The translations under genes and the position numbers were made by a program. The notes beneath the pieces are model-generated. The model did no database searches. It was not told the DNA's origin and saw only the letters and a list, made by a program, of their open reading frames with translations. From Muricea muricata (Eukaryota; Cnidaria; Anthozoa; Malacalcyonacea; Plexauridae): a stretch of DNA of 64,000 nt. The first letter of the stretch is position 1. Each line of letters starts with the position of its first letter. The DNA is taken from positions 45,651,213 to 45,715,212 of the forward strand of contig OY979716.1 of assembly GCA_963855995.1 (NCBI GenBank), in the 5' to 3' direction. Below are positions 4,372-64,000 of this stretch, piece after piece.

Positions 4372-4387
4372 CGCGTCAGGTAAGTAT
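4372..4387 (-). ncRNA. U1: U1 snRNA 5' end, nt 1-16, disrupted gene
   Basis: ATACTTACCTGACGCG on the minus strand matches the first 16 nt of the complete U1 at 37517. It includes the 5'-splice-site-pairing segment ACUUACCU. The rest of this U1 gene is displaced by three sG copies and a U1L head, and no U1 body is found beyond them. Confidence 0.9.
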
Positions 4388-4500
4388 GAGTTTCAATAGC
4401 ACAGGCACTCAGGTTTTATTCAGCCAACAAAAATGGAAACGGACGTGGTTGTTGTGCAGCACTCTAATTTGCATGGTTCATCCTTGCCTGGCCAGATTCG
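4388..4500 (-). promoter_or_regulatory. U1 promoter (octamer DSE and probable PSE)
   Basis: It aligns with the promoters at 27279-27386 and 37409-37516 but is more diverged. ATTTGCAT at 4467-4474 is the octamer on the transcribed strand, about 80 bp from U1 nt 1, as in the other two. The proximal element is inferred from conservation around -55. Confidence 0.75.
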
Positions 4501-5008
4501 GTAAGTGTGAGCATCGCTTGCCGTTGTGGCTCGCTGTAAAAAGAATAAGGCAGAAATATGTTAGAAGTGAGTCCCGCTCACAATCTGTGTGGAAATTACT
4601 AAAACCTGATTACTAGGCTAGACTCTGACTAGTTTTGTCCAAATTCTCCATTACTCATTTCTTTATAATAGAGTTTCTTTCTACTGATTGTTGAAAATCA
4701 TACGAGCTATTTCATTCTTAATGCTTTTATCAATGTTCTATCATGAAGTATTGCTGTCTACATTGAGATTGCTATGCCTTATGGGAAAGCAACGGAAAAT
4801 TTCAGCGTGACCCATAGCCCCCTTGCAAACAACGAGAAAATATATATATACATACAAGACAAGAGATACATATGAATTAAGATCTATAATAAAGAGATCA
4901 GTACTTATTCTTCTAAGTGCATAGTATCTGTTCAGTTTTGCCGGAGCTGTTCATTTCATAGTCGATTTCATACTTTTTCACTTTATATTCCATATTTCAA
5001 AATAAACG
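4501..5008 (-). other. U2-to-U1 spacer
   Basis: Homologous to 26634-27278 (+) and 43736-44378 (-), with several indels. It links the U2 3' end at 5009 with the U1 promoter, showing the U2-then-U1 order on the minus strand. No gene is seen. Confidence 0.75.
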
Positions 5009-5166
5009 GGTGGGCTGTTCTTGATGGTAGTGCAATGACCGAGATAACCCCTGGCCAGGGCGAAGCAAGCTTCAGTGATAAGTCCCATGGCCGAGCTCCA
5101 AAAATCAGTTTAATATATGAGTTAGGCATTGCCTAACATATCAGATATTAAGCTGATAAGAACAGA
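5009..5166 (-). ncRNA. U2: U2 snRNA 3' part, nt 39 to end
   Basis: On the minus strand it starts TCTGTTCTTATCAG and runs through the Sm-site region (GATTTTTGGAG) to AGCCCACC. It matches 26474-26633 with small differences. U2 nt 1-38 are separated from it by Uto-1 and further insertions, so the gene is not functional as drawn. Confidence 0.93.
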
Positions 5167-5520
5167 TATATTTATTACAATTTTTTCCAAAATTTACAAC
5201 AATGGTTATAATAATGGAAAAGTAAGAAGAATCCTAGATACATAGGGGTTCAATATATACAAAATAATAATATACTGCTAATGGGTATAACTGGTAAAAG
5301 TGTCTCATATAGCATAATCTTCGGGTTATCTATATTACTACTTTAAACTTCTATTGTTCATTCCTGAAAATGTTTTGCCTTAAACTATTATGAACTATGA
5401 ATCAATGTTCACGAAAATATAACACATAAGCGACTATACGTTTAACTAAGTACAAAAATAAATTATAATAACTGCATGCAAAATAACACGTATTATAACT
5501 CTACATCTAATTTAAAACAT

Positions 5521-8500
5521 TCATATGACTAAGATAGATATCTGCAGATCCGCATATGGCGTCACTGCAGCAAAGTTTTCTAAATAATTTACGATATCTA
5601 GGTGACATCTGAATTCGGTCTTCTCATTATGAGGATGCCAAGCACCTAGGGAGCCAACAACAAATCCAAATACTCTGCAGTTCTTTCCCATTCTCATGAA
5701 ATGCTGGGCGATATGAGCATATTTCTGAATTTTGCGATCTTCTGCAGCTTGAAGGGCATCCGAACTATTTTCAAAAGGGACTGTGACGTCGATGACAGTG
5801 ACTTCGTTTCCATTTTCAATCAAAATATCAGGGCGACATGTGTCATCTAGTCCGGCCACTTGTTGATCCCGTCTGGCGTTCCCAAATCTGATGGAGTTGG
5901 CTAGTCTTGAAACAATGAGGTCATGTCTCACACGGTTCTTCACCATATTTGTGGGACAGAGTTTCCGGATCAATGTTACACACACGACACAGCATTTACA
6001 TCATCATCCCATCGACTAATATTTTGCTCGGTGGGGACGACGTTCAGCCTTGCACGGTGGATTAATCGCCAATCACTAAATCGGATGTTAAGTCCACTAT
6101 ACGTCCACGATGAAGCAGATCCCAAACTATCCGCAAGAAGTAATGCTCTAGCGACTTTACCTTGATCAAACAAGTCTACTAACCGATTAGCTGCACGTTC
6201 TTGGATCATGCGGTGTAGTTGGAGGCATGAATCTTTTGCTCTGCATCGGCGCCCGGACTCAAGGACAATGGATGGGGGGTTATAGTCAGGGACCTCAACC
6301 TTAACACGAAGATTCCGACAAGCTTTACGAGCTCTAGTCCAGAGGGAGTGGGTTCGGTATTGGATACGGTCAGGATGGAAATTTCCCTGCGTGGAACCTG
6401 ACAAGAAATCGCTAACAAGGGTGGCAGTGGGGTTAGCTCTTGCCGCAAAACGGACTGACTGTCGGAGTTCAGCTTTAGCGATATTCACAACAACTGGGTC
6501 GGCCGAAGATAACATCTTTATCGCCTGGACAATGATTTGAATGTCCACCTCCTGGATGGGATCTTGGAGGGCGAGTCCACCAGCTCTAGCTGTCGCAAAG
6601 ATGACATGTTGCGTTGCTCGGTAAGGAAGGTTGCAGATAAATCTCACGACATCAATGACTTTCCGGCGGTACTTTAGCAAGGAGGCTTTCTCTGGCTCAC
6701 CAGCACGTAGGGCAAACATTAGGCACGGTTGGACAAAGGTTCTTATGGCATCCAGTTTTTGCCAAGGTGTTAACAGGGATGCATTGATCTTATCAAGGTC
6801 TTTGCAAGGTTGGTCAACAAGGTTGTTAATGTCATCAACATCATGCATTTCACCAATCGGGACACCAAGGTATCTGTAGTGCTCATGTTGTTTCAAAGCA
6901 GGGATGACTTTGCCTTGCACCACGAAATCATTGAGTTGGATGTTACCTGTCGTTACACATTTGGAATAGGTACAGCTGAGCGAAGCACACTTGTCTTGGT
7001 GAAATTCCACGCCAATGAGCGTAGCAGTTTGACTGGCCGCGTTGAGTAAACGTTGAAGTTTAGCTTTATCACGCGAGATTAGCACAAGGTCATCAGCATA
7101 AGCTAGGACAGAGATGGGATAGTCATGATGCTTTGCCGGGCCAACTTCATTAGCTTTCAGTAAGATGGAACAGAGTATGATCTCAACGCTAAGATTGAAA
7201 AGGATTGGCGACAACGGACAACCTTGCTTGACCCCCGATATTATGGGAATTTCACCAGTTTCACCCGAGGGAGTTTGAACAATCGTGTGGGCGTTGGTGT
7301 AGACATTCTTGATGAGCTCAACGACAGATTGGGGGACACCAAGGTGAGTAAGGGTGATCTCAATGACATCATGCAGGACACTACCAAATGCATTTCTCAG
7401 ATCAAGCCATGCCAGGAAAACGTTTTTCTGTAGCCGTTTGGCATCAAGAACAAGGGATTGAAGTAGGAACGTATGTTCGTAACACCCTTCTGATGGTCTT
7501 GCGCTTTTCTGACAGGCCGAGAGAAGATCATTGTCAATAGCAAAATTCACCAAGCGGTTAGCCATAACACTCATAAATAATTTATAAATGCAGCTCATAA
7601 GGGCTATGGGACGGAAGTGGGAGATCTTGCCAGCATCACCTTTCTTGTGAATAAGTCAACGATTCTTTCCACGTTGCCGGTACATCATTACCATCCAGGC
7701 AATGGTTGAACAATATAGCAAGAACATCACATTTAGGATCAACAGCTCTCAATTGACGGTATTCAACTCGATCTTTTCCAGGAGCAGAATTCGACAAAGA
7801 ACGTAACTTTTTTAAGATTTCACCAGGTGTAAGATAGTCATCAAGGTGATTGTCAGAAGGACTAGGGGCAGAATCGTTTAGTCCGCGTTTGATGCCCTCT
7901 TTGTCGCATGCTCTGGCGCTGAATACGTTAGTAAAGAATTGTTCCGCATTTTCAACAGTTCCTGTATAAGATGGTTTGTTAACACCACTAACTTTCCTGG
8001 CTGCACGTTTCTTAGATATTCTATACAGACTCTGGATTCTCCTTGCTTCGATAGGGTTATATCTTAGCGGACGTCGGTTGTTATTGACAGGTCTGGAAGA
8101 AGGGCAATTGGGACGACGAGGGGCATGATTTTGTTTCTTATTAGGTAAGACTTTTGCACTCGTTTCAATCACGTCCTTAGCAAATGCTGTGCATTGCTCA
8201 GAAAAGTTAGACCAATCACCAGGATTAGTAAATGCATCACACCATTTGTCATGGAAAGCCTGAATTGGATTGTTGATGGTAGAGGTTGGCTTCCGGGAAG
8301 GACTAACACTTCCATCATCGTCAGGAAGTGAATAATTGGTATGAGGTAAAGGGGTTTGGGAAGCATCACCATATACATCAGTGCAACCAGTTAAGGCGAC
8401 CGTTGGATGAGGAGATATGGTAAGGGAGGGATATCAGGAACTAGGGAATGTATAGGGGTAGTTGATGGAAAAGTTGAGGGAGTTGGATCAGGGCAACTGG

Positions 8501-9560
8501 CATCCATATCGCCATCCACTCCAGTACAACCACTTAAGGCGACCGTCGGATCAGGAGACATTCCGGATACGTTGTTGGGGGTGGCAGGTAAAAAGAAAGG
8601 GGGAGGGTGATTTAGGTGGCTCAAGTCAAACCATCCACTCCAGTGCAACCATTGAAGGCGACCGTTGTTTCAGGAGATGAACACGGGTTTGGACCAGGGA
8701 AAGTAGAAGGTGACGGAGAGTAGTCGGAAAGGGATTGACCATTATGACAGAAAGGATCAGCATTAACGTTCAAGTCAGTATAATCAGCTAAGGCGACCAA
8801 TGATTCAGGTACGGAAACATGATCAGGGGAGCAGGAATAATGATGTCTAGGAGGAGAGGGACAGGGGTCATGGTCTTCATCGAGGTCTATGTCAGAAAGG
8901 ACAGGTACAGGAGTATCACTGGAGCTATCAGTAAAAAGGGAACATGTAAGTGAACATGTATTACCAGGGGAAGTCTGACGAGGAGAGATCTGGATGAGGG
9001 ATCTAGAAAATGGTGGGTTAACATGCTGCGTGGCAAACGAAACAACATCATGGGAGGTTGACGAGGGACACTGTGACGGGCAGCTGGTAATGCCGAACAG
9101 CGGAGAATGAGTTAATGATACTCTTCTTGACCTACGACTTCGCGTGGATGATGCTATGGTGGAATTATTTTGTGACAGGGTGTAATCTACAAAAGATATC
9201 ACAGGCGAAGGAGAGAGGGGGTAATGATCATCTTTACCGATTTTGTGCACACGCTTGACATGGACACCAGCACCACTCGATTTAGAGAAGACACGATTAC
9301 ATATCAAACACTTTGCAGAGATGTTTAGGGACACTCCTTTGTGGGTGGTGGAAAAATGACGCTTGAAATTAGGGAAAGAAGCAATAATATTGTTACACAG
9401 GCAACAGTAGTGGGATTTTCCTTCCGGGAAAAGACGAACGATATTCACCAAATTGATGTTATCAAGATTTGTGCATCTTGGACCTGTGTATACCCAGATG
9501 ACCCTGCGACGAGGAAATAAAACTACAATCAGGACACTGGACGAACGGAGACTGCGACAT
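5521..9560 (-). pseudogene. Uto-1 ORF: C2H2 fingers, RT, RLE, several frameshifts
   Basis: The ATG at 9558-9560 begins MSQSPFVQCPDC. A short deletion near 9478 breaks the frame after the first finger. The next frame (9451 down) carries fingers two and three (CCLCNN...KRHFSTTH, CLICNR...). A Pro/Ser-rich linker with repeated VALSGCT-type motifs follows at about 8390-8830. RT lies in 5976-7598 with AYADDLVL, preceded by frame breaks near 8380, 8170 and 7640. The zinc knuckle between RT and RLE is damaged at about 5980. RLE residues CRPDILIE and VIDVT remain in 5521-5985. It cannot encode one intact protein. Confidence 0.9.
8381..8830 (-). repeat. GGTCGCCTTAA-type motif cluster in the Uto-1 linker
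   Basis: Four copies of a ~20-nt motif (sense GGTCGCCTTAAgTGGTTgyACTG) near 8381-8402, 8521-8545, 8641-8661 and 8785-8800. They encode VAL(S/T)GCT or VALADYT. The same motif lies in non-coding 3' UTRs of Kes-1, Kes-2 and Kes-3. Confidence 0.8.
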
Positions 9561-10374
9561 CATGAGATAGTACTATACGAGGACGTATAATAATAAAAGA
9601 CAATACATCGACAGTACATAATACGGGAATTCCCCATATTCTGAAAATAGAATCCAAGACTAGGACAATGACCGTTAAGAAATTAAAATAACGATCATTT
9701 AAAAAACCACGAAAGTCATCAACACCAAACTTAACAATCTTGACGACAAACACAACAACCACACTTGTGCAAAGTTCCAAGTTAATAACACAAATAGATC
9801 CAGAGATACAGGACACAATAGCGATACTGCCACATTGTAAACAATATATAGTACATAATACACTACAAATCCAAGATCACTATTTCACACGATAGCATAT
9901 CAAAATGTTCCAAATACAGATTGCAGTCCGGATCCAACACGAACAAACGACCAATACTTGTAAATAAACCAAAAATCCAATAAAAGATATACATACATAA
10001 TTGTATGTATGCAAAAATTCAAATTAATACCAACGGTCAAACTATACGAGACGGAATAACACCAAAACGGGACGACACTACGACTTGAAACTTTAATAGG
10101 ACAGGACAATCATAAAACACAGTTCACAGGCCAAATTTGAACCAAGGACAGCAAGCCAAAGTGGAGAAATAAGTATATCCAATATCAAGCGTAACGAATA
10201 ATAAATGAGGACACACGGGCCCCCAAAAACAGAAATAAAATGTTCCAAATAGTGTAAATAAAATCCAAAAAGTACGCAATAGATGAACGGAGCCTTTACA
10301 AATGGTTTACAAACAAAATTAAGACAAAAAACAACTGAAATACGCTTCAACAACGACCTTTTAACAGAGCTCCA

Positions 10375-10389
10375 TACTACACTTGATCT
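10375..10389 (-). ncRNA. U2: U2 snRNA bridge, nt 24-38
   Basis: Minus-strand AGATCAAGTGTAGTA, exactly U2 nt 24-38. It separates the 5' end of Uto-1 from the 3' end of Kes-1, so two different elements occupy one U2 gene. Confidence 0.92.
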
Positions 10390-10394
10390 GGTTT

Positions 10395-10580
10395 TGAGTT
10401 ATACGACGAAGGGCTTGATGACTCCGACGGTGCTATCGCCGTACCCAAGGAGGCCGCTACTCAGCGACGCAGACCTCCAGGGGGTATGATCCCCTCTCCT
10501 GTGCCATGATGACTACCATGAGTGGCCCGACATTTGGACGTGAAGCGTCCGCCTGCCGGGGGTCTCTAACCTATGATGGT
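10395..10580 (-). other. Kes-1 3' UTR structured core
   Basis: Shared by Kes-1, Kes-2, Kes-3 and Kes-4. Features are GACTCCGACGGTG, a GGGGGTATGATCCCC stem-loop and a GC-rich CCTGCCGGGGG block. This copy lacks about 22 bp (CAATGGAGCCTGGACCCC...) present in the other three. It is a good candidate for the RNA part recognised by the RT. Confidence 0.8.
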
Positions 10581-10755
10581 GGATGCTTGAATGACATGAT
10601 AACTGGCTAGAATGCGCCATCAAAGCAACCTCAATGGGTTCCGAGCACCGACAAAAATTGATAACCTGACGTGACCGCTACAGCACAAGGCTGCAGCGAG
10701 CTGCCAGTCAAAAATTTACCTAAGAAACCTAGACCCCCAACCCCCCGGGATTGTG

Positions 10756-11240
10756 GCAGTACAACCACCTAAGGCGACCCCCACATCCTAGAGGCCGAGG
10801 CTCCAAGGCCAATAGGCTCCGCTACAAACACCTGCTGAGACGAGACATTACAATCGAAATAGAACAGACACTAAACTTCGTCTTCGTGTGCGAAATGAAA
10901 TGAACCGAACTGCACTTGAAAAATCAGAGCTGCCGGCCTGAACAGATACTACACTTAGAATAACAATAACTCCGCTGCCCACAAGGAGACAACGGATCAC
11001 GCTGAAACCGAACCGAAGCTAGGTACTAATGCATGCTACATAAATAATAAATAGATCATGCAAGACAAAACAATAGGACAGAACAAACAGAAAACATAAA
11101 ACCTAAATAAAGAAAAGTACTATGTTGATATTAATTACTGTAATTAATACTAAAACATACAGGACAGAATGACTGTGGACGGCACAGGACAAGTGCTAAG
11201 CATGCACCGGCAGTAGCAACCACTTAAGGCGACCCCCGAG
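10756..11240 (-). repeat. Two GGTCGCC-type motifs in the Kes-1 3' UTR
   Basis: Plus-strand copies at 10756-10782 (CAGTACAACCACCTAAGGCG, then ACC) and 11209-11232 (CAGTAGCAACCACTTAAGGC, then GACC). They match the motif in Uto coding linkers, in the same orientation relative to transcription. Confidence 0.85.
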
Positions 11241-11268
11241 CATGCCAAGCAGACAGGACAACACAACA

Positions 11269-14235
11269 TTAAGAAAAACCTGGAGAAAAGGCAACGATGT
11301 TGTCTGGCGTGACATGACCCAGAAGACCACCAGCCAGCCATGACTCCACGAAGAGATCGCGAGGACAATGCCGCTGCTGCACACGCAGGGTGAACCGCAA
11401 TGACGACTTGACCAACGACAAGATGGAGCTAAACACCACCGGCGAACCATCGAAATGGAAGGCATTCCGAGCGATCCACAGGCGGTGACGGATGATACCG
11501 AGGAGGCACGGGAAAACTGGTGGAATCTTGACCGACTTGTCGTACCCAAGAAGGATCTGCGATGTAGTCGGATGGGCCAGGTGAGGAACAACGCTGCAAA
11601 CCAAGGACTGGCACCAGGCGAGGAGGCGTTTGGCAACAGGACACTTGACGAGCAGATGGATCAGGCTCTCTGCTTGACCACAGTGGCAGGACGGGTGGAT
11701 TCGTACTCCAAAACAGATCAGATGATCGGCGGTTTGAAGGACACCATGGGCGATGAGCCAATGTGGTCAAGCGGAGAGCCAGACGGGAAAACTGCCGGTA
11801 CGCAAAGCAGATGGACAGGGACGCCAACGGGACCACGGAACCGAAGCCATTGACGACGATGTTGCCATTCTCCAGGCGACGAGACAGACAAAACCAGGCC
11901 AACATGACAGAACAGAAAAAAGGAGGAAGAAGATTCATCGCGGTCGGAGACGGGGCTGGGAGAAGAAGGATTTGCTGGAGAGAGTGTCCAGCAAAGGCCA
12001 CTCGCAAAGCACGCGAGGAGAAGAAGAAACTAGGATGGTCCGGTGCCTGAGCCAGACGCCGAACCCAAATAACATGAAACGCACTAGTTTTATTATTCAG
12101 ACCCACAACATTGAGGCCACCAGAAGAGGAAGGTTGGGTGAGAGAAGAACGAGCAACGCGCTCACGCTTCCCATTCCAAATAAAAGAAAAGGCAGTAGAA
12201 CTAACGGCTTTCTTGACCGTGGAAGACATGGTCAAGAAAGAGGCGAGGTACCAAAAGGTGCTCAAACCCAGAGAATTGAGCACCAAAGCACGACCGTGAT
12301 AGGACAGGCGACGCTGACGCCCAAGTGCCAAGCAACAACCCATGAGACTTGGTCACATTGAGCTTCGCTCCCGACGAACGCTCGTAGCGTTGAAAAAGTT
12401 TAAAGACAGCTTCAAGAGAGAAGTCTGACATCACAATAATAGAAGTGTCGTCGGCGTATTGACACAACTTAATACACCGACGACCAGGTAGAGAGAAACC
12501 ATCAATGTGTGGATCACTACGTATGGCAGAGGCAATGGTCTCGAATCCCGGTCAGGATCCCGGCCTCGAACACCACAAGATTGATCTGGATGGACGACGG
12601 TAGGTAACACTTCAAGGAGACGATTAGCAATCGCCTTCGCTGCAATCTTGTAGTCCGCACGCAGGAGCGTGATAGGACGCCAATTCTTCATCTCCAGGTG
12701 ATCACCACGCTTGTAACGAAGAGTAATCAACTCAGAACGTTGAGAAAGAGAAAGACGACCAGATGTATACGAGTGATTGAGAACCTCGACGAGGTCCTCA
12801 CCGAGCAACGGCCAGAAACGTTGGTACCATCCACACCAGGAGACTTCCCACTGGCCATACCATCAACGGCGGCTTTGCATTCCTCCAGAATGAGCTCTCC
12901 CTCACACAAAGCGCGCTCAGCTGCAGACAAGCCTCTAGTAAGCCGGGACAGAAAAAAGTCCTGCTCCCCCACCACCAAAGGCTGGGCCGTAAACAACAAC
13001 ACATAGAAAGAGACCCACAAGCCTTAGCAATGAGAGAAACAGAGTGAACAACAAGACCACCCAGAGTGCAAATAGCATAGAGAGGGTGTTCCTGGCCGCG
13101 CTTTCGCTCCAAGTTAAAAAAGTATGTGGTCGAGGCCTTTCCCTCTTCCGCCCATTGCATTCCAGCCCGAAGACAACAACCTCGAGCTCGCTGGCGATGC
13201 AGTTCTTCCAATTCGGACTTTGTCTCAGATAAGTCCCACAACATCCTCCCCATTCTCCAACCGAGGGTTAAGGAAGTAAAGTGTCCTTTCCAGAGGCCGG
13301 ACCTGCTTCCGATAAGTGGAAGCCTGCCTCTTGGAATAAGACTTAATGAGACGCTGCAAGCGCACCTTACCAGCATCGCACCAAGCAGTTAGGGAGAAGA
13401 ATGACCGCTTCTCGGCCCGCCACGATTCCCAAAAACAAGTAATCATCAAAATAAAGGAAGGGTCGCTCATGTGGGAAGTATTCAACTTCCAAACACCAGG
13501 ACCACGATGAACGACCCCAGGCAAAGAAAATTTCAAATATACATATGAGTGGTCGGAGCGGAAAAAGGGGAGAATGTCCACCGCCAAAAGAAGAGGGAGA
13601 AAAAGAGGCAATCCAGAACATATCTAATCTGGATGCCTGTCTAGAATTTGGCCGATGCCAAGTATATTCCACCGCGTCAGGATGAAGCCAACGCCAAACA
13701 TCAGATAGAGAAAAAGTGGTCAATGTAGAAGACCAATTATACGCCCATGGAGAAGAAACGTTACACCCGCGACGATCGAGATGTGGGTCCACAACGGTAT
13801 TAAAATCGCCACAGACAATTGACGGTATATCCGGATCCAACACCGGATAAAGAGATTCAAAAAACAAGGCCCCCTCACGAGCCTTGTTCGGACCATAAAC
13901 ATTACATAAAGAGAAGGTCTGATCAGCAACAGTAAATTGCCCGCAGACAAAACGCCCCTGCTGATCAGACTGAGAAGAAGTTAGTAAATGCTGGGACTTG
14001 AACACAATCGCAACACCACTGCTACGATTAGTCCCAGGAGACGAGATACAGGAATAAGCAGAAGACAATAGTTAATTATCGATGGCCGAACGCAACCACC
14101 AAGAGAATTCCTTAGAAGAGGTGGAGTGGGTTTCCTGAAGACAACAATTGAGCCATGAGAACTAAGTGTCCCGGCTAACAGAGGACTGCAGTCCTTGGCA
14201 GCTTAAGGTAATAATCTCTACTGACTCTATGAATG
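11269..14235 (-). pseudogene. Kes-1 ORF2 (EN, RT, zinc knuckle), frameshifted
   Basis: Pieces in several frames align with intact Kes-3 ORF2: an N-terminal EN start near 14235 followed by an early stop, EN (13367-14068; CGDFNTVVDP, SAYSCISSPG), the EN-RT link (13225-13611, WKLNTS), early RT (12727-13376, SGKSPGVDG), middle RT (12431-12808, NWRPITLL), the catalytic segment (12201-12467, QYADDTSI) and the C-terminus (11269-12343, ending WLAGGLLGH). More than five frame changes make it non-functional. A 24-residue-scale loss near 12540 removes the DQEKAFDR region. Confidence 0.88.
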
Positions 14236-14260
14236 TGAAATAGAGTGGAAGGACAAAAAA

Positions 14261-15465: not shown

Positions 15466-15724
15466 GCCCAGTGCGCGTGCGCAGACAACAAAAGGAATAT
15501 GACAAGGAGCTGGACCAACGGGACCAAGACTTCTTGACCACAGGCAACGTTCAACAGCACAGCAAACGGTCTTCAGCCCAACAGGATTGGATTTTCTTCA
15601 AAAGCTTCTGCTTCCTGTACCAGTCTTCAGTAACCACAATAAGAACAGCACCAAGTTTCTTCTTTAAGAACTTCACCAACGATCAAGTTTCTTCTTTAAG
15701 AACTTCACCAATCAATCTTATTTT

Positions 15725-20840: not shown

Positions 20841-20849
20841 TCCATGTTA

Positions 20850-49629: not shown

Positions 49630-49634
49630 TATTT

Positions 49635-50205: not shown

Positions 50206-50227
50206 ATGACAAGCGGACTAATACAGA

Positions 50228-53788: not shown

Positions 53789-53796
53789 GAAAGAGT

Positions 53797-55218: not shown

Positions 55219-55959
55219 ACTAAAATACTCACAAAAGAATACACCAAGTATAAATTGTAATATACAATAGGCGATTTATAATATATATTATAGAATAGGC
55301 AAATTGCGGGCGGGAAAAGAACCACCGCCTGCACAGAGACAGAAAGCCAGACTACGGGGATCGGCCACGTACCTCCCCCCGTACACAAAAAGCAAAAAGA
55401 CGAAAAAGACCCCCTCCTTACCGATTGCCCCCTGATGGGCCCCCGGGATCAGGAACAGACCCTCGAAATTTATAACACCCGCCCGCGAATATGATAATTC
55501 CTGCGCCCAATTGCTGTATAGCGTAGGGTGCGCACACTAAAATAAGTATAGAAATAATAAACTCACGCCACGCGCCCAATGCGCGCGCGAAAAACCCAGA
55601 AAAATATTCCAAGACAAACAGGAGGTCCACCTAGGCTGGGCCACTTGACCGAGACGCTGGACGTTCCTAAGAGAGCACGGGAACCACGTCTTGGCGGCAC
55701 ACGATGCAAACCACGCGAACCTGGCCAAAGAGCTACACCGAACAAGGCACCAAACTTCCTGATCAGGACAACAGACCAAGGCCAGGAACCAGGCCAAGGA
55801 GCAGGACCAACAAGGCGCCAAACTTCTTGACCGGGACACTAGACGATATCACAACAGCGCTGGAACTTTTCTAGATGCCAATAGTCGTCAGGTTCTTCAA
55901 GTCTTCAGATCTTCAACTGTCTTCAGATTCAGCAACAAACAATTCTTCAATGTGATCTT
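55219..55959 (-). other. Kes-3 5' UTR
   Basis: GC-rich in part, with repeated TCTTCAG-type words near the 5' end (55890-55930). No ORF worth calling. It begins right after the U2-like AGTATCTG. Confidence 0.7.
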
Positions 55960-55967
55960 CAGATACT
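55960..55967 (-). ncRNA. U2: Probable U2 remnant, nt 35-42
   Basis: AGTATCTG on the minus strand, directly after the TxD poly(A) run and before the Kes-3 5' end. Eight bases only, but the position and register fit U2. Confidence 0.55.
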
Positions 55968-56104
55968 TTTTTTTTTGTGTTTAAAAGATTTATTTACAAA
56001 TTGTCTGTGTACAAAGAAAATCAAACTACTCTACTTAGATCAAACCGACTACTGTCTTATCGAAAAGTGATCAATGTTTATAACTGTTTAAAACGTAATT
56101 TACT

Positions 56105-59100
56105 TTATATCTTGAGGACTAGCAGCCCATTGTTTATCTCGGCGAGAGTTTTCTTGTGACTCCAGAAGAGTTCAACCCGGTTAGGGTTAATATAAAAGTC
56201 AGTCTGAATATGGTGTCTGATCATTCGTAACGTATCCTGAGCCACGTTTCTCAAGGGTGTTTTCTTGTCAAAAATTCTGTTGTTACGAGTTTTCCATAGG
56301 TTTTCAGCGGTGGTGGCTATAATATAGAAACACAGTTCATCTGCCGGTGATATGGTGGGCAAAGCCCGACGAAACACAAGAGCTTCCAAGTCTATTGTAA
56401 GTGGGTGACCCGCTATTGCCGTAAGAAGTGGTTGTATTGCGGTCCAAGTGTTCTGAGCCCGTTGGCACTGTACCAGTGCGTGGAAGGAGTCCTCGCGGCG
56501 TGGACAAAAGGGGCATGCCGGACTGACCGACATTCCCCACTGACGTAAATATGCTTTAGTAAGTAGGACACGGTGTGATAGTCGCCATATGAATTCTTTG
56601 ACGTGGTTAGAACATTTTGACGCCCACAGCTGGTTCCATGGGATGGTCGGCGGTGGATGGATCAATCGATTCCATTCGGCCACACAACGAGGTTGGTGGG
56701 GGTCTCGGATCAATAGTTTCAGGAATCGGTTGGTAAGGTTGTCGTCAGGTGTTTCAGCTAGGGTTTTACAATGTTTTGAGACAAAGTCTAATATCGTTCG
56801 GTACCATTTTGGCGCGTTGTGGGGGTCCCCATGCGGGACTGTGTTTGATCGGAGCCATCTCCAGTCACTTTTGATGCATCCTAAGGTGTGTCCTGCCCAG
56901 TAACGGCCGTAGTTTGACCATTTAGTTTGTATTGTCTGGTTAGTAAGATGCTTGAGCCATTTGATCATGCAAAAGGTTCTGATTGTGTGTATGTCTGGGA
57001 TGCCCAGCCCACCTTGATTGAGCGGGAGGTGGCATGTCGCACGCGAAACTAGCTCGTTTTTAGTGTGCCATAGGAACTGAAAAATTGCTCGATGTATCCG
57101 GGTAATGTGAACGTCGGGAATCAAGAACATGCTGGCCAAATAAACGATCTGCGCAATCGCATATGTCTGGATGATGACTGCCTTTTCCTTGCATGATAGC
57201 CGGCGTTCCCGCCATCGTGATAAGGTTGTTTCTAGTCTGTCTGCTGCTTTATCCCAGTCCTGTCGCATGTCATTTCCAATCTTCGTTCCTAGTGCTGTAA
57301 TGTTATCGGTTTTCCATTTGATTGGTACTGGACCATGGTCGCGTCCCGCTTGTTGGCCCACGTACACACCTTCCGTTTTGGTCATGTTCAGTTTACTGCC
57401 ATTTGCCTTCTCATAAGTGTTTATGACGTCAAAAGCCCGTGTGACTGACAGATCGTCTTTGAGAGTGAGAGTGGCATCATCCGCATACGCTGTGGTCTTA
57501 CTGTGTTGCGTGTTCCCTGGGAGGGGTACTCCTTCAATTCTTGGGTTTCTGCGTATGGCATTGGTTAGAGTTTCAAAGACGATCGTATATAAAAGTGACG
57601 ACAGAGGACACCCCTGACGCACTCCCCGTTCCAAAAAAACCGGTTCGGAGAGCCAGCCGTTGTTAATAATTTTGCAGTTTGCACCTGCGTACATGGTTTT
57701 CAGCCATCGAATGAAGGTTGTTCCAAAATTCATTTTGACAAGAATGTTAAAGAGATAATTCCGATCCACTCGGTCGAACGCTTTTTCTTGGTCAAGACTG
57801 ATGAGAATCAAGTTCGAGTGTTTAGCCGTGGCTTCATATGCCATGTCGCGTAGACGCAACACCGTATCATAAATAGTACGTCCGGGTATTCCACATGTTT
57901 GATCGGGATGTATCACCTCTGGCAGTGCGGCCCTAAGGCGATTTGCTAATACAGTTGCCAAGATCTTATAGTCCGTGTTTAGGAGTGATATCGGACGCCA
58001 GTTGCTTAATAGTTCTCGTTCATTTTTTTTATGCAATAGCCGTAGCAACGCCTCTTGTTGTGATTTAGACATTTGTCCTCGAAGGAAATTGTCGTTGTAC
58101 ACTTCCAGCAGGTCCGGGGCGAGATCATTCCAAAAAGTGTGGTAGAATTCTGTGGTCAAGCCATCTGGTCCTGGAGACTTGTTCATGTGCATTTTCTTTC
58201 TCGCTGTCGTCATTTCGGCTTCCGTGATTGGCCCTTCACACGATTCCTTCGTCTCCGCCGAGAGTTGTTTCTCCAAAAGCTCAAGGAGTTCGTGTTGTAA
58301 ATCGCTATCTCCATTGTAGTGGCTGTAAAGTTGTTGATAAAATCTCTGCGCTTCGGCTAGGATGTCTTTGTCGGTGGTTACTACTGTCTGCTCGATCCGG
58401 AGTTTGGTGATACGTGCTTTCTCTTGCTTGCGTTTCTCTAAGCTGAAGAAGAACTTCGTTGGTCGCTCCCCTTCCTCGAGCCAGGACGCTCTACTTCGTA
58501 TTTTGATGCCTTCGAGTTTGCATGTCTCTATTTCCTCGATCTTTCTTTTCGCATCGTCAATGGCTGATGCATCCGGGTGGTTCTGACACTGGAGAGTGTT
58601 CAACTCGTTTATTAACTCGCGTAAATCACGGTCCCTGTTGCGACTCTTCCGGACGGCGTGTGTAATGGCGATCGCTTTATAATCACATTTTGCTTGGTCC
58701 CACCATTCCTGTAACGATGGAAAGTCAGTTTTCTTGCCCTGCCAAAATTTTTGGAAGGCACGTATATCCCGTTGGAAGCTTTGGTCGTCGATAACTTGCT
58801 GGTTGATTTTCCAAACCCCTTTTCCCCGTTTCGAGCCAAGCGGTTCAGTTAGTATGAGCTCAATGACCGAATGATCCGAGAAAGGGCATGCCCGGATTGA
58901 TGTGTGAGTCTTTGCACTGCTTTTCGTGTACCACCTGTCCAATCTGGATCGTAAAGTGAAATCCTTGTTGTGCCATGTATATAACCTGTCATTCGGGTGG
59001 CTCTTGCGCCATGTATCGTGAAGGTCGTTGTGGTCAACGAACTGATTTAGTTCTACTATGCCCTGCCTACCGCTGGCCGGATTTCCCCCTTGCTTGTCCA

Positions 59101-59518
59101 ACTCGGGCGTCTCGATACAGTTGAAATCTCCTGCAAGAAGTATATTCGTATCTCCCGGTTTATATTGCCATAGTTTGTCAAAAAAAGTTTGGCGTTCTCG
59201 CGGAATGTTTGGTGCGTAAACGTTCATAATATTCAGCTGAAGATTATTGTCCTGGTCTGTCAAGGTTGCTGCAAGTATCCTGCCTTCAGTTTCCCTCCGA
59301 ATGTTGCTGATGTGCATATTGGAGCCAGGTGGTAGCAAAATTGCCACCCCCTTGCTTCTGTTTGTTCCCCTACTCCACAAGCATCGACCTCCCCATTCTG
59401 CTGCCCATTGTTTTTCATGTCCGTCATTATCATTATGTGTCTCTTGTAGTAAATAGATATCCGCTTTAAAATTCTTAATAAAATCGAAATTTCTGTCTCT
59501 TTTCGGTTTTTCTGCCAT
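56105..59518 (-). CDS. TxD ORF2: AP-endonuclease, reverse transcriptase, zinc knuckle
   Basis: 1137 residues from the first ATG (MAEKPKRDRN). Codons just upstream in the same frame read CISLNVNG, the usual EN N-terminus, and have no ATG back to a TAG near 59592. The true protein therefore probably starts upstream by frameshift or non-AUG initiation. EN: LLQETH, YAPNIP, AGDFN, FSDHS. RT: SPGPDGLTTEFY, NWRPISLLNTDYK, LDQEKAFDRVDR, GVRQGCPLSSLLY, AYADDATL. C-terminal knuckle CPFCPRREDSFHALVQC. Otherwise uninterrupted, so the copy looks young. Confidence 0.9.
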   Translation of the reverse strand: MAEKPKRDRNFDFIKNFKADIYLLQETHNDNDGHEKQWAAEWGGRCLWSRGTNRSKGVAILLPPGSNMHISNIRRETEGRILAATLTDQDNNLQLNIMNVYAPNIPRERQTFFDKLWQYKPGDTNILLAGDFNCIETPELDKQGGNPASGRQGIVELNQFVDHNDLHDTWRKSHPNDRLYTWHNKDFTLRSRLDRWYTKSSAKTHTSIRACPFSDHSVIELILTEPLGSKRGKGVWKINQQVIDDQSFQRDIRAFQKFWQGKKTDFPSLQEWWDQAKCDYKAIAITHAVRKSRNRDRDLRELINELNTLQCQNHPDASAIDDAKRKIEEIETCKLEGIKIRSRASWLEEGERPTKFFFSLEKRKQEKARITKLRIEQTVVTTDKDILAEAQRFYQQLYSHYNGDSDLQHELLELLEKQLSAETKESCEGPITEAEMTTARKKMHMNKSPGPDGLTTEFYHTFWNDLAPDLLEVYNDNFLRGQMSKSQQEALLRLLHKKNERELLSNWRPISLLNTDYKILATVLANRLRAALPEVIHPDQTCGIPGRTIYDTVLRLRDMAYEATAKHSNLILISLDQEKAFDRVDRNYLFNILVKMNFGTTFIRWLKTMYAGANCKIINNGWLSEPVFLERGVRQGCPLSSLLYTIVFETLTNAIRRNPRIEGVPLPGNTQHSKTTAYADDATLTLKDDLSVTRAFDVINTYEKANGSKLNMTKTEGVYVGQQAGRDHGPVPIKWKTDNITALGTKIGNDMRQDWDKAADRLETTLSRWRERRLSCKEKAVIIQTYAIAQIVYLASMFLIPDVHITRIHRAIFQFLWHTKNELVSRATCHLPLNQGGLGIPDIHTIRTFCMIKWLKHLTNQTIQTKWSNYGRYWAGHTLGCIKSDWRWLRSNTVPHGDPHNAPKWYRTILDFVSKHCKTLAETPDDNLTNRFLKLLIRDPHQPRCVAEWNRLIHPPPTIPWNQLWASKCSNHVKEFIWRLSHRVLLTKAYLRQWGMSVSPACPFCPRREDSFHALVQCQRAQNTWTAIQPLLTAIAGHPLTIDLEALVFRRALPTISPADELCFYIIATTAENLWKTRNNRIFDKKTPLRNVAQDTLRMIRHHIQTDFYINPNRVELFWSHKKTLAEINNGLLVLKI

Positions 59519-59552
59519 TCCGTTTACGTTTAGACTGATACACTTGAATGTA

Positions 59553-60833
59553 TTACTTTGTAAATGGGTTCCGATTTCTTCCCCCGGCTACGTTAACAGC
59601 CGGGCTGTTCCCTTTCGATTTCTTTTTCTTTTTCTTTGAACTAGCCGTAACCATTTTGCCCAATTTTCCAGGTGAGACGGCTCTGGTGGTTCTTGTTGTC
59701 TTTGACGTCTTCAGGGGGGGTTCGTCTTCTCCACCCGAAGAGTCTGTTGAATCGTTCGGGAGGGGCGGTATCGGGGGGTCGACTGGTGTGACTTCGCCGT
59801 TGGGGGGGGATGTTTCCATTACTGTTGTAGGAGCAAGGTCGCTAGGTTGGTGGTCTGAGTTCTTTGTCGGGGCGTCGTTGGTCAGTGGGATCTCTGCTGA
59901 GGTGGACGTTGTGGTCTCCTTGGCCGGGTCAGTCGTCTCGGTAGTGGTGGTAAGCACCTCACGTTGCTCAGGTATGTGGTTTTTCGGGGTTAGGTGGCTG
60001 GATTCAGTTGAAGTTGGTTCGGTTTCGTCTCCCCAGTCTGCCTGTTCGCAAGTCGGGCCATCGGTGGTCATAGGGGTTAAATCGGGTTCCACGTTTTGAC
60101 GTGGGTCTGGTTGTTCGGTTAGCTCTGTTGTTTCTCCTAAACTAGGAAAGCCTCTAAGGTATTCTGGGCATTCATGTACTTCGTGACCTTTCCCCAGACA
60201 TTGAAAACATATTTTTTCGGGGCAGTCAGCTTTCGTGTGCCCCGGTTCCCCGCACTGTTTACACACACGGCCGGCTGTGCAGTCTTTTACCATGTGGCCC
60301 TCTTTGTGGCAGTTTCTACATGTCTTGATTTGTCCACGATACGCTGTTCGTACTCGGTGTCTTCCGACGTGTATAAACGAAGGAATATTACCCTTTACAC
60401 TAGTAAATTGTGCCAGTTTTACGCCCGTCTTAATTTGGAGTCGTCCGTCTATTTCGTCCGTAATCGCAAATAGTTCCCCATACAGTGACATTGTCTTTTC
60501 TAGGTATTTACTGTCCGTATCTAGGGGAAAACCATAAAGTCGGACCCATGTATACGAGATCCTTGGTCGTTGATATTCTGCGCTTGCTAGCGTATATGTT
60601 TTTCCATAAAGTTCGATTTGTGTATCTTTGGCTTCCGTTTTTGCAATTCTCGTTTTAAAGACGATATACCATGTCGTCTGACTAAAACACTCGATACCTT
60701 CTAACGTGTCCATATTTACACCGCCGTCTTTCAGGCTGTTGTAGATCACCTTTCGGAGGACAGCTGGGCCATCTACGGTGGCTTCGGCTGGTGGGTCCTC
60801 CAGGGTTAAAAGTAAAGATCTTGGTCGTGACAT
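59553..60833 (-). CDS. TxD ORF1: three-knuckle CCHC protein
   Basis: 426 residues from the ATG at 60831-60833 (MSRPRSLLLTLEDPPAEA); the longer frame above it has only a GTG start and is rejected. RRM-like part at about residues 15-165 (GVNMDTLEGIECFSQ, RISYTWVRLYGFPLD). Three knuckles in a row at about 178-230: CRNCHKEGHMVKDC, CKQCGEPGHTKADC, CFQCLGKGHEVHEC. Ser/Thr/Pro-rich tail and a basic end with a Lys run. The ORF2 frame overlaps its last codons in the +1 register. Confidence 0.9.
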   Translation of the reverse strand: MSRPRSLLLTLEDPPAEATVDGPAVLRKVIYNSLKDGGVNMDTLEGIECFSQTTWYIVFKTRIAKTEAKDTQIELYGKTYTLASAEYQRPRISYTWVRLYGFPLDTDSKYLEKTMSLYGELFAITDEIDGRLQIKTGVKLAQFTSVKGNIPSFIHVGRHRVRTAYRGQIKTCRNCHKEGHMVKDCTAGRVCKQCGEPGHTKADCPEKICFQCLGKGHEVHECPEYLRGFPSLGETTELTEQPDPRQNVEPDLTPMTTDGPTCEQADWGDETEPTSTESSHLTPKNHIPEQREVLTTTTETTDPAKETTTSTSAEIPLTNDAPTKNSDHQPSDLAPTTVMETSPPNGEVTPVDPPIPPLPNDSTDSSGGEDEPPLKTSKTTRTTRAVSPGKLGKMVTASSKKKKKKSKGNSPAVNVAGGRNRNPFTK

Positions 60834-61141
60834 GACGCGACTCGACGTGACGCGCGTCGTATCCAATGGAGTTCTAGGGTCAGCGACGAGCAGTCCGCCT
60901 ATCCGGCCCTCGGGTGGGGTCCTGAGGACGTGAATCCCCAGGTCCTGGCCTCGGGCTAGGGAGCTTCCCACACGTACACCCACCTAAAAGTTGACTTCGG
61001 GCTCCTGCCCCTTTTCCACAAGTGTACCGTGACCGTTACACTCCGGACTAGCTCGTTTAAAAAACCACGTTGCACCGTGACCTTTGTACACTCTCTCCCT
61101 CGCATAAAAAGCAGCACTCGCGAAAATACCACTTTTTCAAT
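60834..61141 (-). other. TxD 5' UTR
   Basis: 308 bp, GC-rich, with two GGTCACGGT words (61028 and 61074 regions). No RNA gene seen. Starts ATTGAAAAAGTGG right after U2 nt 33. Confidence 0.65.
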
Positions 61142-61151
61142 CACTTGATCT
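61142..61151 (-). ncRNA. U2: U2 snRNA bridge, nt 24-33
   Basis: AGATCAAGTG between sF copy 2 and TxD. Confidence 0.85.
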
Positions 61152-61416
61152 GCTTTTGAGGCGAGATCAGATAGGAGCTTCGACGACTGCTAGTAGCTCC
61201 AACTAGCGATGCAATGAAGTCATACCTCGTGGTGCTTCGTCACTTGAACCTTTTGGGTGCTCTCGTAGCCCAAGATTTAATCGCAGTGCAGCTCGATGAT
61301 CCCTTTATACCGTCCGCCATTTGGCCGCTTTATGCGGGTAATTTGGCCAGTCGGGTATAAGTTGCTAAGGGTACCCTTTTTGACGAGACCGAAATGCGAG
61401 GGGAGTTCCGACACAT
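61152..61416 (-). mobile_element. sF copy 2 (265 bp, SINE-like, in U2)
   Basis: Matches sF copy 1 over its full length with scattered changes (TTTTGGTCTG against TTTCGGTCTC near the start). Flanked by AGATCA at 61417-61422 and 61146-61151. Same ends as copy 1 in an independent place, which fixes its limits. Confidence 0.87.
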
Positions 61417-61423
61417 TGATCTT
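61417..61423 (-). ncRNA. U2: U2 snRNA bridge, nt 23-29
   Basis: AAGATCA between the Kes-4 3' end and sF copy 2. Confidence 0.8.
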
Positions 61424-64000
61424 ATTTTGAGTTGAACGACGAAGGGCTTATCGACTCCGACGGTGCAATGGAGCCTGGACCCCGTGATATCGCCGCACCC
61501 AAGGAGGCCGCTACAGGCGACGCAGATCTTCAGGGGGCATGATCCCCTCTCCTGTGCCATGATCTCTGCCGATGAGTGGCCCGGGCATTTGGGCCAAATG
61601 GGTCCGCTTGCCCGGGGGTCCCTAACCTACGGTATTATATGGGCGATAACAGGTGATAACTGGCTAAGGTGACCTTATATGGACGAAGTCAAAATGAAAA
61701 ATGAACTGCGAAATGAAACGCTCCAAAAGAACAGATACCACACTTTGCTCCCCTCCCCCAAGATCATACGTGTACTATTAAACATTGTGAATTGGACTCA
61801 CCTCTAATATAGGACGGAAAACGTTCAAGGAACTTACCAGAGCTCCTCCGAAAAAACAATGATGTCCTCCTCCGAAATAAACCCGAGGACATTGCTGGCC
61901 AGCCATAGCTCAGAAAAGCGATCCCAAGGACAATGGCGTTGTTGGATGCGCAAAGTGAAGCGCAAAGAGGATTTAACTCGATGTAAAATATCGCCATATA
62001 TGACAGGTCGTTGATCGAAGCGAAAACCATTACGAGCGACCCAGATTTGATGTCGTATTATCCCCAAAAGACAAGGAAAAACCGGGGGTATGCGTACGGA
62101 ATGGTGATATCCAATCAGGATTTGACTGGGTGAGGGACGCGTTAGGCATGGCTGAGCTCGATGAACCCACGATTGGTACCATGCGAACAACCGTTTTGCC
62201 AGTTGGCATTCAACAAAAAGGTGGACCAGAGATTCCGACTGGCCGCAATGACACAGGGGGTCCACTTGCATCCCAAAACGGATTAGCCGGTCAGCAGTGG
62301 GGAGAACAGCGTGTGCTATCAACCAGTTGGTGTCGCGTACAGGACGTATGAAGTGCCACAAGTGCAAGTTCAGCCAGACTGTGCGCCACTCGACAGTCAG
62401 GCCCCAAGTTCGATATTTCGCAACACAGCGATGTTCGGTCAAGTCAAGACGGGACAACTGCCGATAGATGTACCGGGTGGTAATGGAGCGAAGCGAGCAG
62501 GAAGAGGCACCGGGCCCAGACACCACAATTTCCCCGTTCTCCACCGAGCGAGTCAAACGGAACCAAGATTCCATGACAGACCGATAAAATTTTGGCAGCA
62601 GATCTAAAGCACTCTGAGACGGACTGGGGAGCATTAAGATTTGGTCAACGGTACGTCCCGCAAAGGCGACCCGAAGGTAATGTTTAAAATAGAATAGCGA
62701 AGAAAGGGCACTGTGCTCGACAAGACGGCGGATCCACATGACATGTAGTGCACTGATTTTGCGCTTGAGGTCGACCAAGCCGAGTCCCCCTTGAAAGGGT
62801 CGCTGGGTTACCGTTGTACGCGCAAGCCACTCCCGCTTTTTGTTCCAAATAAACGAATAGACGAGAGAATTAATACGCGATACAGCGGAGTCAGGCATGG
62901 AAAGGAACGACGAGAGGTACCAAAAAATACTGAGACCGAGTGTATTGGTCACCAAGGCGCGGCCCTGGAAGGACAGTTGTCGCGACGTCCAGGAGGCAAG
63001 CACGGATTTAAACTGCTCGATGGGAGCTTGCCAGGATACAGTGTCCTCCCCATTAGTTAAATGAAAGCCCATTACAGTGATGCCAGTTGAAGACCACTGT
63101 AGCTGAATAGGAAGGTTGGCCCGAGTCTTCCATGGACCTACCAATAGACCGTGGGATTTTTTAACATTCAGTTTGGCGCCTGACGCGAACTCATATCGGC
63201 GGAATGTATCAAATACTTCTATCAATGCCCTGTCCGAAAGGACGATAAGGGACGTGTCATCGGCGTATTGGCAGATTTTGACACATCTGTTACCCGGGAG
63301 ACAGACGCCATCAATTGCAGCATTAGATCGTATTGCACATGCGATGGTCTCCGCCATGACTACGTACAGGAGAGGCGAGAGAGGACAACCTTGCCGCACA
63401 CCTCGAGAGACATAAAAGGCTTCAGACGTTACGCCATTGATCAGAACGCAGGACGAAATGCGCGCGTAAAAGATAGAAATCCACTTGCAAAAGGAGTCCC
63501 CGAAGTTCATACGATGTAAGACACGGAGAAGGTATGACCAGTCCACTCTGTCAAACGCTTTCTCTTGGTCGAGAGAGAGGACGGCTCCACCTATACCACG
63601 TTGGTTGAGATCGTCGACTACATCCTGTAGCAAGCGGTTGTTGACAATGGGATTGCGGCCTTTAACGCCGCAAGACTGGTCCGTATGGATAAGGGAAGGG
63701 AGGACAGTAAGCAGTCGATTTGCGATGGCTTTGCTGGCAATTTTATAATCTACGCAGAGGAGGGTAATGGGTCGCCAATTTTTCATATTCAGCCGATCCC
63801 CTTTCTTATATAGCAAGGTAATTAATCCCCCGCGTTGCGATGCCGTGAGGGAGCCCGCGGAATAACAGGAATTCATTACCTCCACATAATCGCGCCCTAT
63901 CAAGGGCCAGAAGCGGTGATAGAACTCGGCTGGGAAGCCGTCTAAGCCAGGAGATTTGCCCGTTGCCATGGCGTCCAATGCTAATTTGCATTCATCGAAA
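61424..64000 (-). mobile_element. Kes-4: U2-specific EN-RT element, runs off the window
   Basis: 3' end CTCAAAAT abuts U2 AAGATCA. It has the conserved 3' UTR core (about 61435-61630) but no clear GGTCGCC motif, only a weak GGCTAAGGTGACC at about 61660. ORF1, EN and the 5' end lie beyond 64000. Confidence 0.88.
61834..64000 (-). CDS. Kes-4 ORF2, C-terminal part (RT and zinc knuckle)
   Basis: Open from the window edge to the stop at 61834, at least 722 codons. The frame continues upstream of the first internal Met (63978), reading FDECKLALDAMATGK, so no start is present here. RT motifs: GKSPGLDGFPAEFY, NWRPITLLCVDYK, LDQEKAFDRVDW, GVRQGCPLSPLLY, QYADDTSLIVL. C-terminal VWNLHL-type region and knuckle CHCGQSESLVHLFVEC. 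Close to Kes-3 throughout. No break in the visible part. Confidence 0.92.
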   Translation of the reverse strand, partial: FDECKLALDAMATGKSPGLDGFPAEFYHRFWPLIGRDYVEVMNSCYSAGSLTASQRGGLITLLYKKGDRLNMKNWRPITLLCVDYKIASKAIANRLLTVLPSLIHTDQSCGVKGRNPIVNNRLLQDVVDDLNQRGIGGAVLSLDQEKAFDRVDWSYLLRVLHRMNFGDSFCKWISIFYARISSCVLINGVTSEAFYVSRGVRQGCPLSPLLYVVMAETIACAIRSNAAIDGVCLPGNRCVKICQYADDTSLIVLSDRALIEVFDTFRRYEFASGAKLNVKKSHGLLVGPWKTRANLPIQLQWSSTGITVMGFHLTNGEDTVSWQAPIEQFKSVLASWTSRQLSFQGRALVTNTLGLSIFWYLSSFLSMPDSAVSRINSLVYSFIWNKKREWLARTTVTQRPFQGGLGLVDLKRKISALHVMWIRRLVEHSALSSLFYFKHYLRVAFAGRTVDQILMLPSPSQSALDLLPKFYRSVMESWFRLTRSVENGEIVVSGPGASSCSLRSITTRYIYRQLSRLDLTEHRCVAKYRTWGLTVEWRTVWLNLHLWHFIRPVRDTNWLIAHAVLPTADRLIRFGMQVDPLCHCGQSESLVHLFVECQLAKRLFAWYQSWVHRAQPCLTRPSPSQILIGYHHSVRIPPVFPCLLGIIRHQIWVARNGFRFDQRPVIYGDILHRVKSSLRFTLRIQQRHCPWDRFSELWLASNVLGFISEEDIIVFSEELW

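Follow-up and report, generated by a model that had tools for sequence, protein, structure and literature searches.

Among the non-long-terminal-repeat (non-LTR) retrotransposons, R1 and R2 show that elements with different endonuclease types can share one tandem array of RNA genes, the ribosomal RNA genes, at separate bases, and that they destroy the gene copies they enter. We analyzed a 64,000-bp stretch of the 453-Mb genome of the gorgonian Muricea muricata (C1:45651213-45715212; hereafter, the window), in which linked U1 and U2 small nuclear RNA (snRNA) genes are shared in the same way by several endonuclease types. Compared with R1 and R2, the target here is U1 and U2, and some insertions of one element, which we call U1L, keep a complete gene together with its promoter.

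Elements that target snRNA genes have been described. Utopia, a NeSL-clade element with a restriction-like endonuclease (RLE), is specific for U2, and its 3' flank begins at nucleotide (nt) 39 of that gene; Utopia types with no target duplication and with a 20-bp duplication (nt 39-58) are both published, and U2 gene arrays of Phytophthora are co-occupied by several Utopia families (accessible sections of PMC4640811). Keno, a U2-targeting element of the Tx1 clade, is stated there to have the same 3' flank as Utopia, U2 nt 39 (PMC4640811 and PMC3706591, both in part). Further, the Dada-U1 DNA transposons sit at a fixed U1 base, at GCGAAT/GCGAAC, with duplications of 6-8 bp (PMC3706591, in part), and linked snRNA arrays are known from fishes, including 5S/U1/U2/U5 in Solea and U2-U5 (PMC3464664, in part).

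The Utopia of our locus has the same RLE-type protein with an R2-like reverse transcriptase (RT), the same 3' flank from U2 nt 39, and both duplication types, whereas here single U2 genes also hold elements with an apurinic/apyrimidinic endonuclease (AP-EN) at other bases, in an array linked to U1. U1L resembles Dada-U1 in occupying a fixed base in U1, but Dada-U1 is a DNA transposon at another U1 position. As in the fish arrays, different snRNA genes lie in one unit or locus; the accessible part of the fish report, however, describes no retrotransposon niche.

A linked U1-U2 array as a probable partitioned niche

The reference for our mapping was an intact 1664-bp unit at locus L001 on contig C16, all on one strand, in the order U2, a 0.8-kb spacer containing the U1 promoter, U1 (offset 986), a 0.5-kb spacer, and U2. 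Mapped onto 264 contiguous kb (loci L009, the window, and L010-L028), its pieces appeared in the expected order, with sharp ends recurring at few bases, in agreement with the fixed order proposed in the initial annotation of the window. The same annotation had assigned almost all remaining DNA to elements that each abut a defined snRNA position, and this held from position 3321 onward: intervals set by hand cover 3321-64000 as unit pieces, elements, or inserts within them, including a foreign 2.9-kb insert and 183 bp placed only by likeness; most of positions 1-3320 falls outside the assigned intervals. Two corrections apply: the orientation switches near 21.2 and 43.74 kb, and one unit in the window lacks U1 (21298/21300).

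The unit on C16 belongs to a tandem array with a unit length of 1.63-1.66 kb. All 42 scored U1 matches in the genome were on C16, and 30 of the 41 spacings between neighbors measured 1600-1700 bp, which establishes this tandem array as real. A second, invaded array occupies C1:44.4-45.9 Mb and includes the window. Scored U2 matches (n = 46) fell mainly in C1:44.42-45.90 Mb (23) and C16:6.13-6.50 Mb (17), with six elsewhere; the genome counts for both genes are lower bounds (34400 candidates for U2), and intact units may be undercounted. In the window, Rfam identified one complete U1 (37517-37682, plus strand, 141.3 bits) and four U2 matches, all four of which are interrupted genes. Across the 264 kb, this U1 is the only one with an unaltered 5' end, five more U1 bodies have altered first bases because an element abuts each, and no U2 is intact.

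We consider it probable that the linked U1-U2 array is a niche partitioned among non-LTR retrotransposons that are site-specific, with promoter-copying insertion of U1L as part of it. As initially annotated, RLE-type Utopia, AP-EN elements, and short passengers share the linked units at defined positions. The estimate of at least four lineages was an undercount: we distinguish U1L (several subfamilies), Kes, X1, TXD, and Utopia (two duplication types), in addition to the short elements sF and sG, which are probably nonautonomous passengers. The annotation's claim of novelty has to be moved to other features: co-occupied U2 arrays (PMC4640811) and linked snRNA genes (PMC3464664) were already on record, as the accessible parts of both reports show. 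In this small RNA-gene array, RLE and AP-EN families together occupy five distinct bases, namely U1 nt 4, a site upstream of U1, U2 nt 22/25, U2 nt 36, and U2 nt 39.

Insertion sites in U2

Utopia joins U2 at nt 39, with five joins on the 5' side and nine on the 3' side in the 264 kb. Consistent with this, TCTGTTCTTATCAG was found at 11 places, nine of them after element DNA and two inside U2 behind Kes/X1. A second Utopia type leaves a 20-bp duplication of U2 nt 39-58. A Pfam scan of the Utopia protein returned RVT_1 alone, with no AP endonuclease, and in comparison with R2 structures its RT and C terminus were matched (E 1.6e-55), with a second stretch at 1117-1283; by these features the protein is RLE-type. 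Its CCHC and RPD..D..E residues are presumably those of the RLE.

The AP-EN elements use other bases of U2. Kes and X1 join at U2 nt 22 or 25 in all eight 3' ends of the 264 kb and at nt 24-28 in the five 5' joins listed, while the 3' end of TXD, a poly(A), is joined to U2 nt 36 in the three copies seen, with a 5' join at nt 33 seen once. They share with Keno and other Tx1-clade elements the AP-EN type and an snRNA-gene target, and one of the relatives matched by U1L bears the name Transposon TX1; the nt 39 flank of Keno, however, is found in none of Kes, X1, and TXD, and U1L uses U1. Pfam identified an AP endonuclease, an RT, and a zf-RVT domain in Kes, which also matches human LINE-1 ORF2p (E 6.1e-73); X1 is grouped as AP-EN by its similarity to Kes. 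Both copies of the short element sG are flanked by U2 nt 30 on one side and nt 25 on the other. One U2 gene is nested with two insertions, Kes and Utopia being separated only by U2 nt 22-39 (49614-49631).

Kes and X1 have in common their last ~200 nt at 91-92% (49632-49830 versus 122547-122746, and other X1/Kes ends), with an X1 open reading frame (ORF) 2 that is ~43% identical to that of Kes; this disparity suggests an exchange of 3' ends between the lineages. Moreover, a short U2-like piece recurs in Kes/X1 3' untranslated regions (L004 1022-1056; window 10956; 99950 and 123044 in 264-kb coordinates), two of which contain AAGTGTAGTATCTGTTC...TTTTTGGAGC, and a similar piece is present, in antisense, in the native U2-U1 spacer.

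A U1A-type motif at element 3' ends

U1L, sF, and Kes/X1 all have CCATTGCAC near the 3' end, at a distance of ~44-49 nt once flanking letters are allowed for; CCAUUGCAC, known from U1 and U2 RNA as the U1A-binding sequence, is found at these ends. ATTGCAC was present at most 90 nt from the end in 31 of 33 element ends in the 264 kb (17 U1L, 8 sF, and 8 Kes/X1 examined), the two exceptions being a U1L with a mutation and a Kes with a deletion there; the other 51 of its 82 occurrences lie elsewhere, including in U1 and U2, and the genome's own copies of both genes contain it. In sG, the sequence is ATTGCAT. The U1A protein is known to contact AUUGCAC and a closing C-G pair; the site is a hairpin in U1 and an internal loop in the pre-mRNA of U1A itself (PMC2203988, in part). 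The motif of Kes is predicted to form a hairpin loop of 11 nt with C-G as the closing pair, and that of U1L an internal loop between two stems, so that both present AUUGCAC unpaired beside a closing C-G pair, as in a U1A-type RNA site. For U1L, 93.8% of cells pair across 15 distinct rows, and 5 of 13 pairs show changes in both partners. None of 500 shuffles attained the covariation score, which was also far above slid controls; the structure was written by hand from the same sequences, and an independent RNAalifold fold largely agrees with it. The CCAUUGCAC motif of U1L, sF, and Kes/X1 may recruit a U1A/U2B''-type protein.

Conserved 3' hairpins are usual in non-LTR elements, where they serve recognition by the RT. 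There is an even chance that the CCAUUGCAC structure is likewise the element's own RT-recognition tail, unrelated to small nuclear ribonucleoprotein (snRNP) proteins: hairpins with that role are common, U1L and Kes are both Tx1-like and may have inherited the structure, and the motif was picked after being seen, which makes its improbability post hoc. Against such a tail, the stems vary, while AUUGCAC and the closing pair are each preserved in all but one of 15 rows, and the conserved bases are those of the U1A contact sequence with its closing C-G pair (PMC2203988, in part), present in this genome's U1 and U2. Protein recruitment has to contend with two further results: two of the five structure measures were within the range of the shuffles (pairs with changes in both partners, 81/500; further pair types, 236/500), and TXD and six Utopia copies had no ATTGCA in their last 150 nt.

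Insertion of U1L and sF in U1 and duplication of the U1 promoter

In the 264 kb, all 18 U1L 5' ends come directly after U1 nt 18, a few of them with single-base target changes. A 22-base pattern of the U1L 5' end, which catches part of the copies only (11 of these 18), had 33 exact matches in the genome, whereas its reversed control had none; 32 were in the two arrays, and one lay 1.4 kb from a U2 match at C1:52.47 Mb. Besides the 11 matches in the 264 kb, 20 were fetched and two left out. At all 20 fetched sites the join is again to U1 nt 18, with one target base changed in two of them, giving 31 of 31 examined matches, and every examined U1L 5' join is sense to U1. The short element sF, which has a target base in common with U1L, joins at U1 nt 16 in all eight of its copies.

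At the 3' end, U1L uses two sites. One copy of ACTTACC lies at U1 nt 4, and a second lies ~108-126 bp upstream of the gene, immediately beyond the promoter. Among 17 U1L 3' ends in the 264 kb, 11 were at U1 nt 4 (ACTTACCTG) and 6 at ACTTACCC, ~108 bp upstream; the 20 fetched windows added 13 (8 in U1 and 5 upstream), with none in seven windows. The resulting ratio of 19 ends at U1 nt 4 to 11 at the U1-like upstream ACTTACC rests on these 30 ends, three further U1-site ends (L034, L039, and L045) not being counted. One U1L 3'-end type occurs at both sites (7 in U1 and 4 upstream). In 35 upstream regions, which are related rows, we found (i) a conserved ACTTACC, (ii) the octamer ATGCAAAT, and (iii) a block of ~65 bp before U1; we take the octamer and the block to be the distal and the proximal promoter element, respectively.

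Upstream insertions carry duplications of 126-144 bp, and in 6 of 8 compared pairs the two copies match with 0-4 mismatches. The choice of the upstream site therefore leaves the promoter and U1 downstream, where the gene is complete in sequence. In the window, the U1L-A element (27405..37408, plus strand) follows the 5' copy of a 126-bp duplication (27279-27404, plus) inside a unit piece that runs from U2 nt 38/39 to the end of U2 and through spacer A and the U1 promoter to U1 nt 1-18 (26473..27404, plus). The 3' copy (37409..37534, plus), with two mismatches to the 5' copy, contains the U1-like ACTTACCC, the octamer ATGCAAAT, the conserved proximal promoter block, and U1 nt 1-18, and it leads into the complete U1 gene.

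We propose that every lineage has a base of its own in U1 or U2 at which it makes a nick, and that it is inserted in the sense direction by target-primed reverse transcription. U1L would nick the bottom strand at ACTTACC (complement GGTAAGT), and its RNA, starting at U1 +1 from the U1 promoter, would carry a U1 leader (nt 1-18) that guides the 5' join. The 5' junction is fixed at U1 nt 18 for either copy of ACTTACC, 16 or >120 nt away, which suggests a join set by the RNA. A nick in U1 itself would yield a 14-16 bp duplication and kill that gene, whereas a nick at the upstream copy would duplicate the proximal promoter (126-144 bp), which would provide the element with a promoter and leave a complete U1 downstream. 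Both outcomes would regenerate ACTTACC...GACGCGAG and would thereby account for the head-to-tail runs of elements. More tentatively, and with rather less than even confidence, we envisage that U1L spares its host gene (by an upstream nick, an RNA leader, a copied promoter, and a U1-headed chimera, with a working U1 left) and that, together with Kes, it mimics the U1A/U2B'' hairpin and travels as a false snRNP.

Alternatively, the join at U1 nt 18 could be set by a second-strand cut with no RNA leader, the long duplication then being a stagger of 126-144 nt. We regard this as possible, although the RNA-set join is favored, since one element type would have to pair the same top-strand cut with bottom-strand nicks either 16 or ~126-144 nt away. 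The join of sF, which lies two nt earlier in all its copies, is in keeping with element-specific cuts, as is the lack of a U1 leader in both off-target copies of U1L.

Several observations weigh against the proposed insertion route and the niche as a whole. The only two U1L copies found outside the arrays (C10:5.44 and 7.86 Mb; L073-L076, in satellites) have no U1 leader, and they start near element nt 58-62, joined at ACAA/ACT; the leader test they offer is therefore negative or uninformative. One duplication pair, L048/L057, is unequal (144 versus 136), and for one more the piece cut did not include a 3' copy. The 5' end of the Kes in the window adjoins U2 nt 36-40 and not nt 24-28. The likeness between the tails of sF and U1L is weak (10 of 1000 shuffles were as good versus subfamily B and 78 versus A; 25 in a control versus Kes), as is that between the tails of sG and Kes (8 and 160 of 1000; control, 156). 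Further, many copies were multiplied by array duplication (for example, those at 27405 and 193039, 97-99%), and the junction counts are therefore not independent events.

This last point raises the question of whether a few ancestral insertions were amplified with the array by unequal crossing-over, rather than integrated repeatedly at specific sites. Near-identical copies do stand in head-to-tail runs, and the ORF2 sequences of A91 and A144 differ by a synonymous divergence (dS) of 0.012. Amplification is nevertheless an improbable source of the whole pattern: A, B, other 3' types, and sF share target bases but have different element ends; the same 3'-end type occurs at two ACTTACC sites; one 140-bp duplication is perfect, with a unit variant seen in none of the other pairs compared; and identical junctions are found on C1 and C16. 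Misassembly or collapsed repeats, which the length and repetitiveness of the region and the strand switches at 21.2 and 43.74 kb might suggest, and which, along with singly scattered snRNA pieces, had been named at the outset as fatal to the array, are very unlikely, given that the 264 kb contain no N, long ORFs are intact, target duplications are base-exact, base-exact junctions recur on the second contig, U1 is tandem on C16, and U2 lies mostly in two arrays.

The literature searched on snRNA-targeted elements, with most subscription journals outside it and hence no proof of absence, contained Utopia and Keno for U2, Dada-U1 for U1, and no U1-specific non-LTR element, nor did we find in it a promoter-duplicating insertion, the U2 nt-22 site, or a U1A-type motif in such elements. 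These four features, the first as an AP-EN lineage, are our candidates for novelty. In the same literature, no paper mentioned Keshi, which the initial annotation gives as described, alongside Utopia. If the U1 specificity is correct, U1 joins the targets of non-LTR retrotransposons. A promoter-copying, gene-sparing insertion, if true, would answer the puzzle of how parasites persist in low-copy essential genes, raised in the accessible part of PMC4640811. Moreover, the AUUGCAC structure makes a link between an snRNP protein and retrotransposon RNA testable.

Lineages, activity, and genomic restriction

Full ORFs are present in several copies of U1L, Kes, TXD, and Utopia. Selection on U1L ORF2 is evident from its ratio of nonsynonymous to synonymous divergence (dN/dS), which was 0.08-0.17 in five of seven pairs (with dS >2 in two of these) and 0.33 in a near-identical pair; dS was infinite in the remaining one. 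Pfam identified AP-EN and RT in U1L, with a C-terminal piece outside the scan, and zf-RVT in some close homologs. In a tree made by a quick method from 82 hand-selected rows, without curated Tx1 or Keno, U1L and Kes/X1 fell into separate supported clades, and one match annotated Transposon TX1 (P0105) was in the clade beside U1L. Judged by sequence, U1L, Kes, and X1 are Tx1-like AP-EN lineages with an L1-group relationship.

With Kes ORF2 as the query, 37 of 39 scored matches, U1L included, lay in the two arrays, and the other two were the C10 copies of U1L. Utopia relatives of at least 49% were inside the arrays or no more than ~50 kb away from other U2 matches; protein matches of 39-48% outside the arrays, on C1, C3, C7, C8, and C9, may represent another RLE family. 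TXD relatives of at least 54% were found at six loci, five in C1:44.48-45.71 Mb and one at C1:41.89 Mb. A cluster of TXD-like AP-EN elements (33-34%), four of five without stops, is located at C1:35.02-35.16 Mb, away from the snRNA arrays.

As for noncoding features, one 317-nt sF unit folds at z -3.36, sF and sG had no Rfam match at E≤1, and an Rfam ribozyme search of element 5' ends (one U1L and one Utopia) gave no match at E≤5.

Layout of the window

The first part of the assigned region is on the minus strand. A U1L 5'-end fragment (3321..3415), right after the U1-like ACTTACATGGCGCGAG, is followed by three tandem ~304-bp sF elements at 318-bp spacing (3419..4371), whose separators are ACTTACCTGACGCG, the U1 target, or a sequence that differs from it by one base, and by a divergent unit piece with spacer A, the U1 promoter, and U1 nt 1-16 (4372..4851; unit mapping). 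Next come U2 from nt 37-39 to its end with spacer (4858..5168; Rfam and unit mapping), a Utopia copy with broken frames and a 5' junction at U2 nt 39 (5169..10373), and U2 nt 25-39 (10374..10388), which separates it from a broken Kes copy with a 3' junction at U2 nt 25 (10389..15714). A broken X1 (15721..20842; 3' junction at U2 nt 22, 5' limit approximate) and U1L ORF2 fragments at a rearrangement breakpoint (20843..21203) complete this part.

The plus-strand part begins with the unit piece without U1, which ends in U2 nt 1-39 (21204..21529), and a Utopia copy with broken frames (21530..26472), ahead of the unit piece that precedes U1L-A. Within U1L-A, ORF1 spans 28063-29610 and ORF2 33307-37005, the latter with one internal stop, and a foreign, AT-richer insert of 2886 bp with an ~11-bp duplication occupies 30221-33106. 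Beyond the complete U1, U2 nt 1-30 (38137..38166) adjoins sG (~265 bp; 38167..38430), and a Utopia copy with U2 nt 39 at both junctions (38446..43538) is followed by U2 nt 39-58 (43539..43558), matching the 20-bp duplication of the second Utopia type. The stretch at 43559-43741 resembles the 5' end of that type, a likeness judged by eye only.

After the strand switch at 43741/43742, all features are again on the minus strand. Spacer A and U2 from nt 39 to its end (43742..44538) are followed by a Utopia with an intact 1310-aa ORF that includes the RT and an R2-like C-terminal region (44539..49613), the U2 nt 22-39 remnant between the two insertions in one gene (49614..49631), and a Kes with both ORF1 and ORF2 intact, including its AP-endonuclease, RT, and zf-RVT domains (49632..55959). 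TXD (55967..61141) has an intact ORF2 of 1137 aa from the first ATG and the poly(A) junction with U2 nt 36. A second sG, 97% identical to the first (61151..61415), and the 3' part of another Kes (61425..64000) reach the right edge, this Kes extending to 67954, where U2 nt 1-24 starts.

Outside these elements, a 24-bp satellite has expanded to ~4.5 kb in a U1-U2 spacer (112360-116850 in 264-kb coordinates; L014-L015), and a 273-aa open frame lies at the left edge of the window (2-820).

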